NCBI GenBank assembly: GCA_903926465.1
Contig: CAIYJE010000010.1
Location: 1 to 64,000 of the forward strand
DNA from: an uncultured Planctomycetales bacterium
GTDB lineage: Bacteria; Planctomycetota; Planctomycetia; Isosphaerales; Isosphaeraceae
DNA: 64,000 nt
Reading direction: 5' to 3'
Shown here piece after piece: positions 37,508 to 47,119 of the stretch. The position numbers were made by a program, and so were the translations under genes. The notes under the pieces were generated by a model. It saw only the letters and a list, made by a program, of their open reading frames with translations, was not told the DNA's origin and did no database searches. Each line of letters starts with the position of its first letter. Positions within the stretch are counted from its first letter, which is position 1.

Positions 37508-39001
37508 TCACTCTTTCAAGGCCACGGCGGCAGCCATTTCCTTCATCAGGGCGGGCTCGTTCAGGCTCGACCAGCAATGGCCATAACCGGGCCCGAATGT
37601 GATCTGGCCATCGAATTTTGGAACCAGGTGTCGCACGGCCGCATCAAACCGGTGCACGGGCTCATTCAGGTAGTAGTCATCGGCCTCGCCAATCCAGACC
37701 CGAAGCTTCCCCTTGAGCAGGGGTGCCAGTTTTGCCCAGTTCGCTTCCAGATGCCGGCGCATATCAAACTTCATCCAGTGCTCCAGAATCGACTGGTCGA
37801 TCTGGCCCGTGACCGGATTCCAGAGCGGCACCGGCCGGCCGTCAGGCCCCTGGGGGCCAAAGGTGGCATTCCAGGCCCCCCACTGCTGCCCAGACATGGC
37901 CCAGGAATCACCCAGGCCGAGCACATTTTCCATGGCGCATTCTTGCCGCACCGTGAACCGGACCTGGCCTGAGCGTGGGTCTCGGCACGAGGGGACCTCA
38001 CGGGCCGCGCCATCGACGTAGGCGCTGGCATCGTCGTAAATATTGATGCGTTGAAACGACCGAAAGTCAAGCGGGTCTGGGCAGCTGGACCAGCAGCCTT
38101 GAAAGTACTCCGGATAGAAGACCTGGAGCGCAAACGAGACCCAGCCGCCGGTCGAGCCGCCATCGAGTACGCGGCGGCCGTTGCCTCGGAACTGACGTTC
38201 AATGTGCGGAATCAGTTCGGTGGTCAGAGCTGTGCCATAGGGTCCGTGGTTGGCCGAATCAATCTGATAGGGGTCGCCCAGTGGGCCGGCGCCGTCGAGG
38301 TGAACAATCAGGAACTTCGGCGCGGCGTCACTCTGCCACAACTGGGCGAACCCGCCGCCCCGTTCCATCCGGCCCAGGGCACTCAGGTAGCGGCTACCGT
38401 AGCCTCCCACATGGACGCGCAACGGGTACCGCTGGTCGGTCTGTTCCGTGAACCCGCGAGGCACAATCACGGCCGCGCGCAAGAACATGTCTCGCCCGTG
38501 AAATTGTGAGAGAACCTGGGACCGGAGCTTGATCGACTTCACCCACTCGGTTTCGGCCGGCAGGCGATCGGCTGGCAGTTGCTGGTTCAGCACCAGCGCC
38601 ATGGGCTCGGGCCTGGCTGGATCAATCCGCACCCGGGTGGGTTGGCTGTAGAGGTCGCCAGGGGCATTGGGCAGATTCAGGTCGAGATTGGTGTGCAAAA
38701 CGGCCTGGGCCTGATATTCGCCGGCTCGGATTCGAGTCAAGGATTCCAGGGGGAATTGGCTTGGGGCACGCAGGGTGCGCACCGTGCCGCCTGGTTCCAG
38801 CTTGGCAACGTCCATTCCCAGGATTGGCGTGGAACTTTCCGCCTGTCCCAGCTCGAACCGTGGTTCCCCACCGTCGGGCGAGCCGAGCAAGATCATGAGC
38901 CGGCCAGCCACCGGGTTGCTGGCCAGCGCAGGGTCTAGCTGAACAGAGGCGGCAACGTTGGCCACGGTCTGAGCCGTGGCGCTGGCTCGGTTTCTCATCA
39001 A
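37508..39001 (-). CDS. Alpha/beta-hydrolase, esterase-D-like
   Basis: A 497-residue protein. The first 150 residues are beta-rich (LMILLGSPDGGEPRFELGQ). The hydrolase part shows RYPLRVHVGGYGSRYL, FLIVHLDGAG, the nucleophile elbow GGSTGG (281-286, Ser 283), and a late GKLRVWIGEADDYYLN with the likely acid and GPGYGHCW with the His. This resembles enterochelin-esterase/feruloyl-esterase-like serine hydrolases. No clear signal peptide is seen, although the neighbouring proteins are exported. It overlaps the upstream glycosidase-like gene by four bases (ATGA), so the two are coupled. Confidence 0.8.
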   Translation of the reverse strand: MMRNRASATAQTVANVAASVQLDPALASNPVAGRLMILLGSPDGGEPRFELGQAESSTPILGMDVAKLEPGGTVRTLRAPSQFPLESLTRIRAGEYQAQAVLHTNLDLNLPNAPGDLYSQPTRVRIDPARPEPMALVLNQQLPADRLPAETEWVKSIKLRSQVLSQFHGRDMFLRAAVIVPRGFTEQTDQRYPLRVHVGGYGSRYLSALGRMERGGGFAQLWQSDAAPKFLIVHLDGAGPLGDPYQIDSANHGPYGTALTTELIPHIERQFRGNGRRVLDGGSTGGWVSFALQVFYPEYFQGCWSSCPDPLDFRSFQRINIYDDASAYVDGAAREVPSCRDPRSGQVRFTVRQECAMENVLGLGDSWAMSGQQWGAWNATFGPQGPDGRPVPLWNPVTGQIDQSILEHWMKFDMRRHLEANWAKLAPLLKGKLRVWIGEADDYYLNEPVHRFDAAVRHLVPKFDGQITFGPGYGHCWSSLNEPALMKEMAAAVALKE

Positions 39002-40404
39002 CGGCCCTCATTTCTGATCAAGTTCAGCGCCACGTCTTCAGGGAATTCGATCTCCGGCAGCGTGATCTCATCTCCCACGTGCATGAATTCGAATTCATGC
39101 AGGGAGTTGCCGGTTCCGGGGTCAACCCAGGTGCCTGTGTATGTGCCGGCGGGAAGATTCAGGATGAGCTTGGCCTTGCCCCCCTTGTTGACATAGACGG
39201 CGTATTGTCGGCCGGGCTCGGCCAGCACGGCGGCCTTGGCGCCTTCAGGCAGCCCCGCTTTGAGGATCGCCGGTTCAGGCCGCATCTTGAGCAGGTTCAG
39301 GCTCTCAAGGAACTTTTTCAAGACGCCAAGCTGAGCGCGGAGCTGGGCGCCGCCGCCTCCGGGGGTGGGGTCTTCCACCTTCGCGGTTCCGGTTTCGTGC
39401 TCGGTGGTAAACGAGTAGTCCAGGTTATTGTAGATTGCACCACCGGAAAGCAAGAACAGCCAGGCCTCTGCGCGGTAGGTGGCGTTAGCGGTGCCCGCGA
39501 ATCCGGTCTCATCATCACCAAGCGTCAGGTCCAGGTGATAGTTTTCAAGTGCGGCCGCTGGCTCTGAGTAATGGAAGTTCAAGATCTTGACGGCGGGGTG
39601 GACGGCGGCTTGCACCTTGGCCGACTTGTTGGCGATGTTCTGGGCAATCAGGTGTTGGCGGGCCTCGTTTTGCTCGGTGCTCGCAATTTCCTGAGCGATC
39701 CGTTTCTGCCAGTCCAGGGTCACGCCCCCAAAGTAAGGCTCGTTGCAGATCTCAAAGTACACGTTGTCAAACGCTTGCAGTTCGGTCACCGCCTTGCGCA
39801 CAAAGGCGAGTTGCTTTTCCAGCAATGCGGGATGCTTGAGGGTGTACACCTCCTCCCGAGGGCAGCTTGCCAGTCCGTTCACATTGTTCAGGGCGTTCAT
39901 CGGGTTGGCTGCCCAGAGGTTTTCCTCATAAAGCGGGCAAAACAAGACGAATTCGACCACAATTCCGTGTTCGCCGGCAGTGGTCAGCAACGCCTTGAGC
40001 CGGTCGAAATAGGCCGGTTCGAACCGATCGAGGTCAAACTGCTCAAGCCGATCCCCGGCCGCTTCCTGCACCTTGACCCAAGGGGCCAGGTATCGGCCAG
40101 GCTTTGGGGCCAGGGTGTTGGCCTTGATGTTGAACGAGCCGGGCACCTCTCGGTACGTACCGCTGAAGATCCGGGTGAGGTTCAGGCCGTCGTGGGCCAG
40201 AGTCTTGAAATAGGGGATGAAGTCAAAGTCTTGGTTCAGAAGTGCGCCATAATGTTCGCCAGAGGTTACCAGCACTGTTGGTTTGCCGCGGAACAGCAGG
40301 TAGTGGGGTGCGTCTGGGTGCTGGCAGATGGGGGAGCTGTTGCTAAGCGTGGAGGCTTGCCAGCCGCTCAGGACCAGGGCGATCAGGGCTGCAGTTCCAG
40401 GCAT
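38998..40404 (-). CDS. Exported glycoside-hydrolase-like (TIM-barrel) protein
   Basis: A 468-residue protein with a signal peptide (MPGTAALIALVLSGWQAS). The barrel shows FRGKPTVLVTSGEHYGALL, DGLNLTRIFSGTYRE, and the acid/base Glu in NEP at 221-223 (VYFEICNEPYFG). A second Glu, E299 in LTLGDDETGFAG, is a candidate nucleophile. The pattern is that of GH5-type clan-A barrels. The last 90 residues are a beta-domain (GRQYAVYVNKGGKAKLIL, AGTYTGTWVDP) as found at the end of putative collagen-binding/DUF5060-type glycosidases. The ATG at 40404 gives the signal peptide. Coupled to the esterase-like gene downstream. The substrate is unknown. Confidence 0.75.
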   Translation of the reverse strand: MPGTAALIALVLSGWQASTLSNSSPICQHPDAPHYLLFRGKPTVLVTSGEHYGALLNQDFDFIPYFKTLAHDGLNLTRIFSGTYREVPGSFNIKANTLAPKPGRYLAPWVKVQEAAGDRLEQFDLDRFEPAYFDRLKALLTTAGEHGIVVEFVLFCPLYEENLWAANPMNALNNVNGLASCPREEVYTLKHPALLEKQLAFVRKAVTELQAFDNVYFEICNEPYFGGVTLDWQKRIAQEIASTEQNEARQHLIAQNIANKSAKVQAAVHPAVKILNFHYSEPAAALENYHLDLTLGDDETGFAGTANATYRAEAWLFLLSGGAIYNNLDYSFTTEHETGTAKVEDPTPGGGGAQLRAQLGVLKKFLESLNLLKMRPEPAILKAGLPEGAKAAVLAEPGRQYAVYVNKGGKAKLILNLPAGTYTGTWVDPGTGNSLHEFEFMHVGDEITLPEIEFPEDVALNLIRNEGR

Positions 40405-40494
40405 GAACCAGGGGTCCTGTTCAAAATGCGGGTTGGAGGGGAGATGCCGCAGGCACATCCCCAGGGGCCATCATTGCGGGGCGGGTTCTGGAAT

Positions 40495-41037
40495 TCAACC
40501 GGTGGCGTTGTGCCCAGAGTGTGCGGTGCTCTGGCTGAGGTCTCTGGCCTGACGGCGTGTTTCCATCAGCTCTCGAAAGAAGTCCACTTCGCTTCGGTTG
40601 CTGCGGACAGAGGCCCAGGCTTCTCGCACCAGTTCCAGGCTGGAGGCGAACATCAGGGTAACACCGGCCACCGCCAGGGTGGTGGGTAACGCGCCAAAGA
40701 TATGGTTCAGCAGAACATCCACGGCCAGGGTCAGGCTGGTACCCACGAATGTAGCCAGGGCCGCGTACAACATGGACAGGGCCGCTCGAACCCGGTCACT
40801 CCGCCAGACCAGCCGTTCGAGTTGATCGCTCACGTGTCTGAGTCGCTGTTCGGGGAAGTCGAGTTCGGTGTGGCCCCGGTCGATCTTGTCGGCCTGCTCG
40901 GCCATGGTCCTGAGCCGATCGGCAATCCGAGACATCCGGTTCGAGGTCGAGATGATCAGCGAGCCGGTGGCCGTGAGAAACAGGGCGGGCGAGATCATGG
41001 CCGAGAGTGCGGAAAAATCTGCAGCGGACCCATCCAT
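40495..41037 (-). CDS. DUF2721 membrane protein
   Basis: A 180-residue inner-membrane protein. The N-terminal MISPALFLTATGSLIISTSNRMSRI (abbreviated) carries the DUF2721 hallmark of a helix ending in STSNR, followed by a charged coiled stretch and two more helices (ALSMLYAALATFVGTSLTLAV and LPTTLAVAGVTLMFASS). The role of this family is unknown. It stands alone on the minus strand. Confidence 0.8.
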   Translation of the reverse strand: MDGSAADFSALSAMISPALFLTATGSLIISTSNRMSRIADRLRTMAEQADKIDRGHTELDFPEQRLRHVSDQLERLVWRSDRVRAALSMLYAALATFVGTSLTLAVDVLLNHIFGALPTTLAVAGVTLMFASSLELVREAWASVRSNRSEVDFFRELMETRRQARDLSQSTAHSGHNATG

Positions 41038-41501: not shown

Positions 41502-42413
41502 TCAGTTTCCCTCGAAGTAATCGGAGTCAATTCTTTTCACCACGTAAGTGGCAGACGTTGCAACACCGAGGTCGAAGTCGATCATCAGACCGGCTAGCTC
41601 TTTGCCGTTCATGAGCACGACTTTTGTATCAATGCGTGAGGCGTAGTCAATGGCTTCGGCTGAATAGGTCGAGGTTGTGATAAACACCCCTTTTTTGGCT
41701 CGATGCCCCTGCAAGGCCCCCACAAACTTCTGAATGTCGGGTCGCCCTACCGTGCCTTGCCACCGTTTAGCCTGAATGAAGATCGTGTCCAGGCCAAGGC
41801 GGTCCTCCTTGATGATTCCGTCGATACCACCATCGCCAGTTTGGCCAATTCTTTCACCCGCGTCCTTGCGTGAGCCGCCGTAACCCATCTTTACCAGTAA
41901 TTCGACCACCAGTTGCTCAAAAAACGTAGGTGAACAGCCGAGGATTCGGGTCAACAAATCTTGTGCGAGTTCCTCGCGTAAACCTTGGTGCGCTAATTCA
42001 ATCGCCTCTTCTGGAGTACTCTTGAGGGCGTTGTCATCGCTTTCAAGAATCTCATTCGAAGCCGGTTTTGACGAACCTCGGAATGCGACATACTCAGGGA
42101 ATTGCTCCAGGTACTTTGCGTCAAGTTTGGACGGTTTGGTACTCATGACTTCCAAACCTCGGTCTGTGATCCTGAAAACCCCCCGCTTGGTTGATTCAAT
42201 CATGCAGGCCTTTTTCAAGTACGTTCGAGCCCAGCCAATGCGGTTTTTAAAGATGCCTTGCTGGCCGCTGGGTAATAGTTCTGCTCGCTCTGCAGGCGAG
42301 AGACCGAAATGCTCGGCGAGCGATTCCTCGACATCGCGAAGCGAATGCTCTTTACCATCTTCGAGATGCTGCAAAAGCGGCAGAAAACAATCTTGATAAA
42401 AAGGTATAGGCAT
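41502..42413 (-). CDS. mrr: Mrr-type restriction endonuclease
   Basis: A 303-residue protein. The N-terminal part (about 6-90) is a winged-helix Mrr_N DNA-binding domain (FLPLLQHLEDGKEHSLRDVEE, NRIGWARTYLKKA). The C-terminal part (about 160-290) is a PD-(D/E)xK nuclease: FFEQLVVELLVKMGYGG, then the catalytic D198 in GDGGIDG and the QAK motif at 214-216 (IFIQAKRW), the Gln form usual in Mrr. Such enzymes cut methylated foreign DNA without a partner methylase (type IV). The ATG at 42413 gives the standard domain start. It is divergent from the dynamin-like pair, 612 bases apart. Confidence 0.9.
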   Translation of the reverse strand: MPIPFYQDCFLPLLQHLEDGKEHSLRDVEESLAEHFGLSPAERAELLPSGQQGIFKNRIGWARTYLKKACMIESTKRGVFRITDRGLEVMSTKPSKLDAKYLEQFPEYVAFRGSSKPASNEILESDDNALKSTPEEAIELAHQGLREELAQDLLTRILGCSPTFFEQLVVELLVKMGYGGSRKDAGERIGQTGDGGIDGIIKEDRLGLDTIFIQAKRWQGTVGRPDIQKFVGALQGHRAKKGVFITTSTYSAEAIDYASRIDTKVVLMNGKELAGLMIDFDLGVATSATYVVKRIDSDYFEGN

Positions 42414-43025
42414 CAGGGGGATCGTTCCTGGTCGGATGGCCAGCAGAATACGGCTCAAACTCGTTGCCGCTGGCTCGGCCGATTGGTGATATTACTGAAT
42501 CCAGGCTCGGTCGGCCGCGCGATATGGAACGTCCAGGCTTGGCGGCACGTTCTGGCTCTGAGTTGCTTGGATATGCGACGGACTTGTGAAGATCTTACGC
42601 AGGGCGGCACATGCTAGCAACGGCCCACCTGGTTGTTCGTCCCACCCGTACTGAGTCTGGGTGGTGTGCTTACCCTGCAGGATTCGAGTCTGAGATGGAA
42701 GCCAATCGGTTCAATAATCGCTCGCCTGCGTCGAATAGCGTGTTGGTTCTGACTCGCGCCGCATCTTGTCGATTGTCGGGATTGTGAGATGCGTGCCGGT
42801 TGTGTGGGTTGGTGATCCGGGGCGACGTTCTGAGTCATCCGGGGTTCGGTGAACTCAATCGGCCATGCGGTTGTGCGGCCGGCGATGATTGCAGGAGGTT
42901 GTCTGTTGCTGTTGACGGGATCGGACTGGCGGGCCAGGGTGAATCTTTCAGAAGATGAGGGTTTATGGTTGGGGCCGGGCGTGAAGGTTTGGCTTCCGGG
43001 GATTCTTTGAGAGTGGGAGTGGTCG
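42414..43025. other. Divergent intergenic region between mrr and the dynamin-like genes
   Basis: This 612-base stretch should carry promoters for both directions. Frames on the minus strand (to 43156) and a 58-codon frame from 42611 on the plus strand have Arg/Ser/Pro-rich products without motifs, so I call no gene. Confidence 0.5.
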
Positions 43026-44957
43026 TTGAGCCGACGTGAAAGCGGGACTTCTGGCGGAGAGTCGCAAGTGCGTGAGGCCGAGCAGGCCTGCACGCGGCTG
43101 GCGGCTTTGCTGGAGCAGGCGCTCAAGAAAGAGGCAACTGCCCGAGCTTCCTCCACCGAACATGAAGACGTGTGGGTTCCCCTGACCCGGTTCGCGCTCA
43201 GTCAGGTGACCATGCGGTTACAGCCCGCGCTTCAGCCAGGATGGCTCCATACCGACCCGGTCCATGTGGTGATGTTTGGTGGGACCAACAGCGGTAAATC
43301 CACGGTCTTGAACGTGCTGCTTGGCCGCCCGGCGGCCGGCATGAGCTTCAGGGCCCGGTTCAGCCAGCATCCCGAGGCGTATCGCCCGGCGTCACTCGGG
43401 AACCGGTTCCTGGATTCGTTCCCCACGCGATTCCCCGGTTACGCCCGGAATCCGGATCGCCATCCCCCTCGCCAGGAAGATGATCAGTTGCGGGATGTGG
43501 GGTACCGGCCGGCCCTGGCGCTCAATGATCCTCTACGCATGGGTGGGCCAACGCTGGCCGCTCCTACCACGGTGTCGGCCGTGCTCTGGGATATCCCCGA
43601 TTTTTCGACCGAGGAGGCCCAGGAATACCTCTATCCAGCCGTGTTTGACACGGTGGCCATGGCCGATCTGGTGGTGATGGTGGTCACCCGAGAAAACTAC
43701 GCAGACAATCGCGGGGCCTTGCTCAGGGCCCTGCTCTGCAACGCTGGCCTTCCTATCACCGTGGTGGCCAACAAGATGGAGCCGGGGGGCGACCTGCTCG
43801 ACGACATCCGGCGTAAGGTTGGCGGCACCACCGTGGATACCCCGCCCATTGACCCCAGACGCATCTTGCCGCTTCCCCAGGTTGATGCGGAAGACGAGGT
43901 CGATCGCCTGCGCCGGTTGCTGGAAACGGAAGAGGCCGCAGGTATCCGGGCAGCGGTGGCGAATGAAGTTTCGGACGGGGCTTTGCTCAAGAACCGGGCG
44001 TTACAGGGAACCCTTCGGTTCTTGGACCGTCAGCTTGACGACGCCCTGGCCCCGCTTTGGGCCGATCTGGCGATCAGCCAGCGCTGGGCGGAACTGGTGG
44101 ATCGGGTGGCCCGTGAGCGATTCTTTGAGACCTATCGCCGTGAGTATCTGGAGGGAGAGCAATATGTTGATTTCAACCAGACCATGGTCAAGCTCATGGA
44201 TGAGCTGGAGGTTCCCTGGATCGGCCCGATCATCTCGGGCGTGAGCAAGGGGCTCAAATCGGCTTCTCGCTATGTTTTTGGGGCGGTGGCCAAGGGGGTC
44301 AAGCATCTCATGAACTGGGGTGATTCCGATGCACCCCGAAGCGGCCCCGAGATGGAGATTGTGGGTGAGGCCTTTGACGAGTGGTTCACCACCCTCAGAG
44401 GAGAGGCGCAGGCCCTGGCCCAAAGCGATCCCGATCCGGCCTGGCGCGGGATTGCCGGCGGGCTGGATCGGCTGCTGGCCAACCCAGACTACGTGGATGG
44501 ACTGGTGAGTTCGTACCAGCAGTACCGGGAGTCCATGGACCAGATTACTGGCCAGCGGTCCCGCGTGCTTTATGACCAGATCGCAGAGCGGCCGGCGCTC
44601 TTGAACTCGTTGCGTGGCCTGAAGATGACACTCGACGTGGGCACGACTGCAATGATCGTCAAGTCCGGCGGAATTGACTGGACCGACGCCGTGATCGGGT
44701 CGCTGGTGGCCCCGGTTCAGCGGTTAATCATCGAGTTTGGCCTGGAGCAGGTGGTCGCCCTTCAGAAGGCGCAGCTCAAACAGGAACAGTTGCAGGCGTT
44801 GCGTGACGTGGTGCAGGCACGGATGATCGACCCGGTGCGTGGCCTGTACCGCCCAGCGGCTGGGGCGGCCGACCTGATGGGCGCCCGGCGCGACCTGGCA
44901 ACCATCACATCAACGCTTCAAGGGATTCTGGTTTCACGATCGGAGCGTGGTTCATGA
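43026..44957 (+). CDS. Dynamin-like GTPase, first of a coupled pair
   Basis: A 643-residue protein. A helical N terminus leads to a GTPase domain with P-loop GGTNSGKST (85-93), a switch-2 region WDIPDF (188-193) in place of DTPG, and an NKxD position reading NKME (249-252). The rest is helical, with a Gly/hydrophobic stretch (IGPIISGVSKGLKSASRYVFGAV) that may insert into or peel along a membrane. Large size, GTPase at the N terminus and long helical remainder resemble bacterial dynamin-like/YfjP-type GTPases. The TTG start is preceded by GGGAG; a GTG 14 codons later is the alternative. It overlaps the next GTPase gene by four bases. Confidence 0.78.
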   Translation: MSRRESGTSGGESQVREAEQACTRLAALLEQALKKEATARASSTEHEDVWVPLTRFALSQVTMRLQPALQPGWLHTDPVHVVMFGGTNSGKSTVLNVLLGRPAAGMSFRARFSQHPEAYRPASLGNRFLDSFPTRFPGYARNPDRHPPRQEDDQLRDVGYRPALALNDPLRMGGPTLAAPTTVSAVLWDIPDFSTEEAQEYLYPAVFDTVAMADLVVMVVTRENYADNRGALLRALLCNAGLPITVVANKMEPGGDLLDDIRRKVGGTTVDTPPIDPRRILPLPQVDAEDEVDRLRRLLETEEAAGIRAAVANEVSDGALLKNRALQGTLRFLDRQLDDALAPLWADLAISQRWAELVDRVARERFFETYRREYLEGEQYVDFNQTMVKLMDELEVPWIGPIISGVSKGLKSASRYVFGAVAKGVKHLMNWGDSDAPRSGPEMEIVGEAFDEWFTTLRGEAQALAQSDPDPAWRGIAGGLDRLLANPDYVDGLVSSYQQYRESMDQITGQRSRVLYDQIAERPALLNSLRGLKMTLDVGTTAMIVKSGGIDWTDAVIGSLVAPVQRLIIEFGLEQVVALQKAQLKQEQLQALRDVVQARMIDPVRGLYRPAAGAADLMGARRDLATITSTLQGILVSRSERGS

Positions 44958-47119
44958 GTGATTCAGCGCCGTCGGCCGACTTGCCAGTCTTATTTAGCCA
45001 TAGCCCGCGCGCGAGCGCGGCCGATGCCCTGGCCCGGCTGGCCAGGACCATTGAGGAACCCGGCGCGCTCACGTTCAACGCCGCCAACCGGGCCGCGCTC
45101 GGGCGTGCGCTGGACCGCGTGGGCGCGCAGTTGCTGCGTGAAGAAGACCTTACGCTTACCATCGCACTTGCCGGCGGCTCTGGGGCTGGAAAAAGTACCC
45201 TCATCAATGCGTTGGCGGGCAGCGTCATTGCCGAGGCAGCCGCCCAGCGCCCCTGCACCATGCAAGCCACCGTTTACCACCACCGCAACGCCACGTCGGC
45301 CGGACTGCCGGCCGACCTGCTCCAGCAGGTGCGCACGGTCACTCACGAACGGCCGGAGTTGCGTTTCAAGGTGCTCATTGATACGCCCGACCTGGACACC
45401 TTTGCCACCCAGAACCGAGCAGCCACCCGGGCGTTGCTCAAGGCGGCTGGGCTGGTGATTTATGTATTCACCCCCGAAAAATACTGGGATGAGCGGGTCT
45501 GGTCGGTCATTCGCGAAGAGCAACGCTTTAGCGCCTGCCTGGCGGTCTTGAACAAGTCTGACACGGTTCCCGCCGCCGCCCTCGAAAAGGCCGCCGAAGA
45601 GATCAGACGCAGGTTTGCCGATCTGGGTAAGCCTGACCTGCCGATTCTGAGAGTTTCCGCGTTGCGCCACCTGGCCAGGGCCGATGGCTCACTGCCGCCG
45701 GCCTCCCCGGACCCAGCCCGGACCATCGACGAGTTCTCCAGCTTGCGGGCCTACATCGAATACGAACTCCGCGAGGGGGATATTGCCCGGATGCGCATCC
45801 AGCAGCGGCTGGGGGTGGTGAATTATCTGGAGCAAGAACTGGCACAGATCGTGCCGACCGATCTGCCCGGCAAGCTTGATCGCCTCTCGGCGCTGGCCGA
45901 AACCCAGATTGACGAGGCAACCGCCCAGCTTGGCGGCACTCTGGCGAATCGGATGGCCATGCTTGAGGCCGATCTCCGGCCGCTTACCAACCAGCGCAAG
46001 AACCAGCAGTTTTACGGCCCGTTCCGGGTTTGGGTCTCGGCTGGGTCGCTGGTAAGCGATGGCATTCCCAGGTTGGGCCGGCGGTTGCGCTTGCTGGGAG
46101 GAGCCGCGTCTGAGCATGACCCGGGTCCGCTGGCACCACACCGCGGCGAGGTTGAGGACCAGCTTCGGAACCGGGCTGCCCGGCTGCGTGATGCGGCTTT
46201 TGCCCAGGCCTTGCCCATTGATCGCTGGCGTTCGATTGCCTCGGAGACCGAGGCCGACAAGGTCCTGGGTGACCTTGCCGGCGAGCTTCAGGGTCGGTTC
46301 CTGTCTGCGGAACTCAAGGGGGCCGGTCGCTTGCGCGCGGTGGCCTGGTCGGCCAGTTTGCTGGGCTCGATCATTCCCGTGGCACTGGCTGCCTATGCGC
46401 TCTGGGCGTTGCTGGTTCGGCTCAGCCGTGGTCAGTTTCCCAGCGGTCCGGGCATGCTGGGACTGGTGATTGCACTCACGGTTCTGGCCTATGTAGTGTT
46501 GCAGGCACTCACGGCTGTGGCTCTCACAGGTACCGGCCCGCCGCCGGTTAGCACGGTGGGCCCGCTATCGATCCATGCTGTTTTGAAACGTACCCTGGGA
46601 GGCTGGATCAGCGCCTACCGCCAGGCAATAGAGGCCGACCTGCACGCCATTCAACAGCCGATTGCCGTGCTCCGCGCGGTGGCCGAGGCTCCACTCGACC
46701 AACGGGGACTGAGTGAGGCCCCCCGCCACCCTTCGCCGCTCGCTTCACTTCCCCGCCCCGCTCTAACGCCGGTTGTCATGTCCCAGGCTCCAGTAGAGCC
46801 AGAGCATTCCGAAGTCGCGGTTGCAGAACTCCAGACCATCGAGCCTGAAGGCTTAGAAGCCGAAACGCCAGTGATTGCGCTGGCCGCACCGGCTGTGGCT
46901 GAGCCAATTGAGGGGCCGGTTGTCCGCGAGTCGGACCGGTTGGAATCCTCGGAACCGGTTCTGGTTTCCGAACCTGCCCCAACCGTTGCCCCAGTCCGTG
47001 AGCAGGCCCATGCTGAGCCTTCCGAGGAAGAACCTTTGGCCCCGGTTCCAACAGAACGACCTGCGGATCTGTTCCGTAAGGCGTTTGAGCGTCAGGCTGG
47101 TCGTGGGCCCAAGCCTTGA
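44954..47119 (+). CDS. Dynamin-like GTPase with two membrane helices, second of a coupled pair
   Basis: A 721-residue protein. Its GTPase domain has canonical motifs: P-loop GGSGAGKST (74-82), DTPD (143-146) and NKSD (200-203). A helical middle is followed by two membrane helices at about 460-530 (LLGSIIPVALAAYALWALL and MLGLVIALTVLAYVVLQALT), then a Pro/Glu/Ala-rich C-terminal tail of about 170 residues. Its ATG overlaps the first GTPase stop (ATGA). Bacterial dynamin-like proteins often come as such pairs and remodel membranes. One soluble and one membrane-anchored partner suggests a heteromeric machine, which is inference. Confidence 0.78.
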   Translation: MSDSAPSADLPVLFSHSPRASAADALARLARTIEEPGALTFNAANRAALGRALDRVGAQLLREEDLTLTIALAGGSGAGKSTLINALAGSVIAEAAAQRPCTMQATVYHHRNATSAGLPADLLQQVRTVTHERPELRFKVLIDTPDLDTFATQNRAATRALLKAAGLVIYVFTPEKYWDERVWSVIREEQRFSACLAVLNKSDTVPAAALEKAAEEIRRRFADLGKPDLPILRVSALRHLARADGSLPPASPDPARTIDEFSSLRAYIEYELREGDIARMRIQQRLGVVNYLEQELAQIVPTDLPGKLDRLSALAETQIDEATAQLGGTLANRMAMLEADLRPLTNQRKNQQFYGPFRVWVSAGSLVSDGIPRLGRRLRLLGGAASEHDPGPLAPHRGEVEDQLRNRAARLRDAAFAQALPIDRWRSIASETEADKVLGDLAGELQGRFLSAELKGAGRLRAVAWSASLLGSIIPVALAAYALWALLVRLSRGQFPSGPGMLGLVIALTVLAYVVLQALTAVALTGTGPPPVSTVGPLSIHAVLKRTLGGWISAYRQAIEADLHAIQQPIAVLRAVAEAPLDQRGLSEAPRHPSPLASLPRPALTPVVMSQAPVEPEHSEVAVAELQTIEPEGLEAETPVIALAAPAVAEPIEGPVVRESDRLESSEPVLVSEPAPTVAPVREQAHAEPSEEEPLAPVPTERPADLFRKAFERQAGRGPKP

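Follow-up and report, generated by a model that had tools for sequence, protein, structure and literature searches.

Most bacterial dynamin-like proteins (DLPs) are paired in operons (PMC6104087). The pair from Campylobacter jejuni, Cj-DLP1 and Cj-DLP2, is described as a 2:2 tetramer that tethers liposomes and acquires GTPase activity and lipid binding upon assembly (PMC6104087). Tandem DLP genes are also described for the Eleos system LeoA/LeoBC and for LeoABC of enterotoxigenic Escherichia coli (PMC4159319). Bacterial dynamin pairs are already known, and planctomycetes are hardly discussed in that literature; in an incomplete collection, papers crossing dynamin with Planctomycetes or Gemmata obscuriglobus included none devoted to planctomycete DLPs, as far as the available text of those papers goes. 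Here we describe two overlapping genes, which we call A and B, located on a 64,000-nucleotide stretch of DNA from an uncultured Planctomycetales bacterium (the window; contig CAIYJE010000010.1, positions 1 to 64,000). Taken together, the sequences, the structural models and the analogy with Campylobacter suggest that the products of A and B probably form a dynamin-like hetero-oligomer on the inner membrane, which would tether or remodel membranes and work like Cj-DLP1/Cj-DLP2. An earlier note, made from the sequence alone, had proposed a dynamin-like membrane-remodelling pair and a possible shared role with the Mrr-type nuclease gene next to it.

Predicted folds of A and B

The two open reading frames (ORFs) are read from one strand and overlap by the four bases ATGA, as the earlier note had stated, an arrangement that would allow translational coupling. 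We regard both ORFs as real and not as chance because full-length relatives of both recur in fixed order across many genomes. Gene A, which starts at TTG 43026 or possibly at GTG 43068, is present in one copy in the source genome (6.89 Mb, 207 contigs searched); a 53 % identical relative is from a Planctomycetota metagenome-assembled genome (MAG). Scans for promoters and terminators gave a result no better than shuffles. In Pfam searches MMR_HSR1 matched both proteins (5.5e-06 for A, 1.9e-07 for B), while Dynamin_N matched B above its cut-off (1.3e-06) and A below it (0.0022). There was no NCBIfam equivalog match for either protein.

AlphaFold2 models were built from alignments of 17 rows (A) and 16 rows (B), and reached a predicted local distance difference test (pLDDT) of 85.3 and a predicted template modelling score (pTM) of 0.80 for A, and 75.7 and 0.61 for B. 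Both models have a large GTPase domain and a helical neck and trunk, with a C-terminal helix that returns to the neck. The best match found by VIA-align 2 was Fzo1 9kfd_B for A (Z 19.2, 5.9 Å, 329 residues aligned), with mitofusin 5yew_C at Z 18.2 (323 aligned), and mitofusin 5yew_A for B (Z 21.9, 3.8 Å, 303 aligned), with EHD 2qpt at Z 18.8 (284 aligned). The alignments to Fzo1 and mitofusin span residues 10-635 of A and 16-586 of B at Z 17-22, and structural matches to the G domain only are lower (Z about 13 for A, over 160-220 residues, and about 16 for B). Foldseek ranked the cyanobacterial protein BDLP 2j68 at the top for A and for B, and its lists contain dynamins, mitofusins and IniA, with the Campylobacter pair 5owv/5oxf in both. 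The proposal of a dynamin-like pair is upheld by these matches to mitofusin/Fzo1, BDLP, EHD and the Campylobacter DLPs, and an unrelated GTPase fold was not found for either model. The models support placing A and B in the dynamin superfamily, filed by fold as a G3 variant.

Two strongly hydrophobic segments begin at residues 470 and 504 of B (19-residue Kyte-Doolittle means 2.13 and 2.39), in agreement with the two membrane helices claimed for this protein. The description of A as soluble was half right. A hydrophobic hairpin at about residues 545-575 (mean hydropathy 1.54 in the window protein and up to 2.66 in relatives) argues against A being simply soluble, and because this hairpin is weaker than the segments of B and stronger in some relatives, we read A as a probable peripheral membrane protein or one that inserts in part. 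Cj-DLP2 has two tip segments, and by comparison with them residues ~385-440 of A may also act at the trunk tip. The C-terminal tail of B is short or absent in most relatives. Several relatives of B carry a short terminal motif of hydrophobic-aromatic type (L-F or L-Y); a clamp-binding reading of this L-[FY] end was dropped as unsupported.

The comparison with Cj-DLP1/Cj-DLP2 (5owv, 5oxf) shows side-by-side DLP genes, dynamin folds and two unequal members on both sides, and trunk-tip membrane segments, two of which are described in DLP2 and proposed for A. The differences are that there is no significant sequence similarity (P0002 against 5owv_A, E 0.42), that A and B have a DxPD G3 motif and A has lost the G4 Asp, and that the 119-aa N-terminal assembly domain described for Cj-DLP1 is missing: the P-loop starts at residue 85 in A and at residue 74 in B, with only helices before it. 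Because this domain is missing, we liken the pair to Cj-DLP1/2 in its working and do not file it in that family; the 2:2 assembly is a feature of Cj-DLP1/2, whereas A and B are known here from genes and models. Mitofusin, Fzo1 and BDLP (5yew, 9kfd, 2j68) share with A and B the G domain and helical neck and trunk over nearly the whole chain, and with B a membrane hairpin in the trunk, but identity in the structural alignments is ~12-18 %, A and B are two unequal proteins, and the same G3 and G4 changes set them apart. E. coli RdcA/CrfC, our control, also has a dynamin-like G domain; its motifs are canonical (G3 DTPG, G4 NKFD), and rdcB (292 aa), the gene that follows it, has a regulator and not a DLP as its annotated product.

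Co-retention of A and B

Queries with the window proteins in 59 related genomes gave relatives of A in 22 and of B in 31, with several weak matches at the G domain among them. Across the 22 stretches read, the full-length relatives are arranged with A before B on one strand, the exceptions being G036, where they are on separate stretches, and contigs that end inside the pair. For a G-domain tree, 64 rows (36 A and 28 B) were taken, as for the G1 and G3 motif counts below, from fetched loci and not from all matches. In this tree a 100/99 branch divides every A row from every B row, the groupings within A correspond to those within B, and the Methylobacter rows (L025, n=2) have long branches. 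By this computation the split between A and B is an old one, and both members have been retained together. We then have the broader profiles, which were run on 294 genomes of the phylum and found full-length A in 47; a distinct B is also present in 46 of the 47. The two genes are adjacent with A upstream in 29 of these 46 and were counted as apart in 17, either on one contig at a distance of 0.3-1.6 Mb (4 genomes) or on different contigs (13). In G105 the genes are at contig ends and linkage cannot be judged, so 16 or 17 are truly non-adjacent, and the B match covers part of the profile only in G072, G090, G104, G105 and G149. These are the properties of paired DLPs, side by side and co-inherited, and they bear out the earlier view of A and B as a pair.

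In G052, G037, G211, G231 and another 12-13 genomes both genes persist at distant positions, whereas DLP pairs usually lie side by side. Because both genes are retained after separation, their partnership does not follow from linkage alone, and this co-retention, as read from the genomes, is the best evidence here for a joint action of the A and B products. It also makes the prediction of a heteromer directly testable. The neighbouring genes vary between families while the pair persists, and a search of the neighbourhoods for an operon partner that recurs across families found none. A full-length A-B pair also occurs outside the planctomycetes, in a Methylobacter MAG (L025 7821-11208) with a transposase gene just downstream, and horizontal transfer is possible in this case.

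G-domain motifs and proposed mechanism

The P-loop GxxxxGK[ST] is present in 64/64 A and B rows. At G3, the DxxG of the dynamin superfamily is replaced by D-x-P-D in 36/36 A rows (that of L093 being read from the alignment) and 28/28 B rows. The G4 Asp is found in 0/17 A rows (alignment A1) and in 16/16 B rows (A2), with the full NKxD in 15 of the 16; these counts are limited to A1 and A2, G4 of the divergent rows being hard to align. The divergent rows read FNQ, FNM, FSK or FNR in A and mostly QTHA or QSHAD in B. As an in-genome control we used the 15 MMR_HSR1 matches, which include A and B: G3 was readable with a simple pattern in 9 of the other 13, all nine with DxxG, and not readable in this way in 4. 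As aligned, switch II is altered in both partners and the guanine-specifying residue is lost in A only. The earlier note had read DIPD and NKME of A correctly, and had called the motifs of B canonical, which holds for G4 (NKSD) and fails for G3, where DTPD carries the same Gly-to-Asp change as A.

The mechanism that we propose begins with the ATGA coupling, which would give similar amounts of A and B. B would be anchored by its hairpin and would hydrolyse GTP, and A, with weak or less specific nucleotide binding, would join it via tip and G domain and complete, stimulate or gate the active site or cycle of B. The nucleotide cycle would then swing the trunks, and membranes would be drawn together or damaged membrane stabilised. 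The outcome may be tethering and fusion, fission or membrane protection, and the sequence cannot decide which. A bolder proposal, which we consider rather unlikely, makes A and B a distinct dynamin class, with G3 Gly changed to Asp in both and A without the G4 Asp, in which catalysis would proceed via a composite A:B G-domain interface and A would be a nucleotide-binding pseudo-GTPase that licenses B in remodelling the invaginated inner membrane of planctomycetes. Planctomycetes have elaborate inner membranes. A pair that is both real and active would be a naturally asymmetric dynamin heteromer in which one partner is canonical at G4, the other is degenerate and both have an altered switch II; it would then provide a system in which to study how catalysis is shared between two unequal G domains.

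Several points weigh against a working dynamin heteromer. Neither A nor B has significant sequence similarity to solved dynamins, so that homology rests on the G domain and the predicted fold, and the whole-chain superpositions are loose (template modelling scores of 0.21-0.36 against BDLP and the Campylobacter pair). The DxPD motif could mean that perhaps neither A nor B hydrolyses GTP normally. In the genomes searched, G264 is the 1/47 that shows no distinct B, and in G189 a full-length B is seen but no distinct A. The orthology of the divergent f2-type rows appears less sure, since in most of them the match to the A1 profile is confined to the G domain.

Table 1. Features of the A/B locus, in window positions
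Feature	Position	Strand	Basis
Gene A, putative dynamin-like protein, 643 aa, TTG start (alternative GTG 43068)	43026..44957	+	ORF; MMR_HSR1; fold model
Gene B, putative dynamin-like GTPase, 721 aa, two hydrophobic segments	44954..47119	+	ORF; MMR_HSR1, Dynamin_N; fold model
ATGA overlap, B start and A stop	44954..44957	+	direct sequence reading
A G1/P-loop GGTNSGKS	43278..43301	+	motif reading and alignment
A G3 DIPD replacing DxxG	43590..43601	+	D-x-P-D in all A rows
A G4 NKME, Asp of NKxD missing	43770..43781	+	Asp in no A1 row
B G1/P-loop GGSGAGKS	45173..45196	+	motif reading and alignment
B G3 DTPD replacing DxxG	45380..45391	+	D-x-P-D in all B rows
B G4 NKSD, canonical	45551..45562	+	Asp in all A2 rows
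A first candidate trunk-tip segment, residues ~385-440, low model confidence	44178..44345	+	pLDDT 45-59 over 401-440
A second candidate trunk-tip segment, hydrophobic hairpin, residues ~545-580	44658..44765	+	hydropathy peak at residue 555; hydrophobic across A1
B predicted membrane hairpin, hydrophobic segments 470-488 and 504-522	46361..46519	+	hydropathy
B C-terminal Pro/Glu-rich tail and short terminal predicted helix	46721..47116	+	pLDDT <50 over most of 590-700; helix 703-715
Mrr-type restriction endonuclease, judged outside the system	41502..42458	-	domains; linkage not conserved; foreign composition

Neighbouring genes and alternative roles

The gene read away from A and B is of the Mrr type, as the earlier note had recognised, with both Mrr domains found (Pfam Mrr_cat 5.8e-37, Mrr_N 5.3e-33) and a PADLOC match to the type IV model mREase_IV (1.4e-95). 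Its start is TTG 42458 or ATG 42413, and 567 bp lie between the annotated start codon of Mrr and that of A. Its adjacency, its divergent orientation and the strong PADLOC match would favour an anti-phage or DNA-damage module of the pair and Mrr, for which the earlier note had named a survey of linkage in other genomes as one check. The survey contradicts the link to restriction. A near-full-length Mrr match is present in 7/59 relatives (G003, G005, G014, G019, G029, G051, G058), and in 0/5 of the genomes with both (G014, G019, G029, G051, G058) is Mrr near the pair, from which it is separated by 0.57-1.06 Mb or by lying on another contig. G011, the nearest of the relatives whose contig is finished, has esterase and glycosidase-like genes directly against A (gap ~92 bp), a flank common to it and the window only and homologous to window 37508-39001 and 38998-40458 (49 and 57 % identity), and this sister locus has neither the DUF2721 gene nor the Mrr gene that the window carries there. 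The Mrr gene also has a foreign composition, with a GC content of 0.514 and a GC content at third codon positions (GC3) of 0.558, against a GC3 of 0.66-0.75 for seven surrounding genes including A and B. None of ten further neighbouring genes has a PADLOC match. Because Mrr is unlinked elsewhere, absent in G011 and foreign in composition, it is best read as a separately acquired gene unrelated to the pair, although it may instead have been lost in G011, and we consider a shared role extremely unlikely. The DUF2721 membrane protein gene (window 40495-41037) is located between the esterase/glycosidase flank and Mrr.

Among the other neighbours, an M2/M3-type peptidase gene is upstream of A in G009 and G026. 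In family f3 a DAO-type FAD oxidoreductase gene is upstream of A in several loci, and a CHAD gene is directly downstream of B (3-210 bp) in 5/6 loci (L063, L065, L066, L067, L069); these may be an operon extension or an inherited neighbourhood. CHAD domains are described as binding polyphosphate (PMC6537752), and the position of the CHAD gene would suit a remodeller of polyphosphate granules or storage bodies. However, no CHAD gene recurs next to A and B in any other family that was examined, and its presence in one family only may reflect an inherited neighbourhood, so that this role seems most improbable to us. We found no literature on DLPs with a CHAD domain in an incomplete collection. 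For a role in membrane scission during budding or fission it speaks that planctomycetes are described as lacking ftsZ, with their division machinery unknown (PMC10632474, PMC5147048), Streptomyces DynA/DynB function in sporulation division (PMC6104087), and full-length A was found in 32/32 sampled genomes of family f2. The phylum searches scored 4 candidates per genome, and absences in them therefore prove little; two sets of 21 and 24 genomes were rescored with most or all candidates. After rescoring, a full-length B relative was absent from 9 f5, 1 f6, 1 f10 and 10 f1 genomes (f1 being the family of the window), some genomes without it having short weak B matches. Judging from these searches, planctomycetes without FtsZ often have the pair but can live without it, and because of its patchy presence it does not serve as a general substitute for FtsZ. 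In the paper on essential genes of Planctopirus, the main text, as distinct from the gene tables, mentions no dynamin or GTPase (PMC10632474). We therefore hold a division role to be very unlikely. The fallback offered in the earlier note, a housekeeping pair beside an unrelated nuclease, is the better reading, but the word "housekeeping" overstates the case, since even within the family of the window the pair is patchy.

Phage protection by the pair alone, of the Eleos type or like DynA, for instance by keeping the membrane together so that lysis is delayed, would fit this patchiness within the family and the report that Bacillus subtilis DynA slows phage lysis (PMC8844932). PADLOC LeoA matches were found in 16/16 B rows and 13/17 A rows (best 1.1e-13), centred on the G domain, and the best LeoBC match over the rows was 1.1e-11. 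The sole yardstick for these scores is RdcA, a non-Eleos dynamin, which also matches both models, more weakly (LeoBC 5.8e-06, LeoA 3.2e-05), and for this reason we judge the Leo matches of the pair to be at G-domain level. The likeness to Eleos is thus one of tandem genes and weak G-domain profile matches; the scores are not far above those of RdcA, neither A nor B is split, and LeoB is described with a classical DxxG (PMC4159319), unlike A and B. Relatives were not found on viral contigs with A1 or A2, in pattern-seeded scans that distant relatives could escape, nor on plasmids with two A queries (P0001 and the Methylobacter A). The window has no defence neighbours except Mrr, and the composition of the pair is native. 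Phage protection is accordingly an unlikely role, and a tethering or remodelling hetero-oligomer of the Campylobacter kind remains our preferred reading of A and B.

The same genome encodes a third dynamin-like GTPase (L146 9022-14286, G000:C195; 823 aa) with a DLPG-type G3. Its gene is 24 bp upstream of one for an SNF2-type helicase that matches the PADLOC HmaA, BrxHI and DrmD models (1e-41 to 1e-43), and the two are a possible dynamin-helicase pair for defence or repair.

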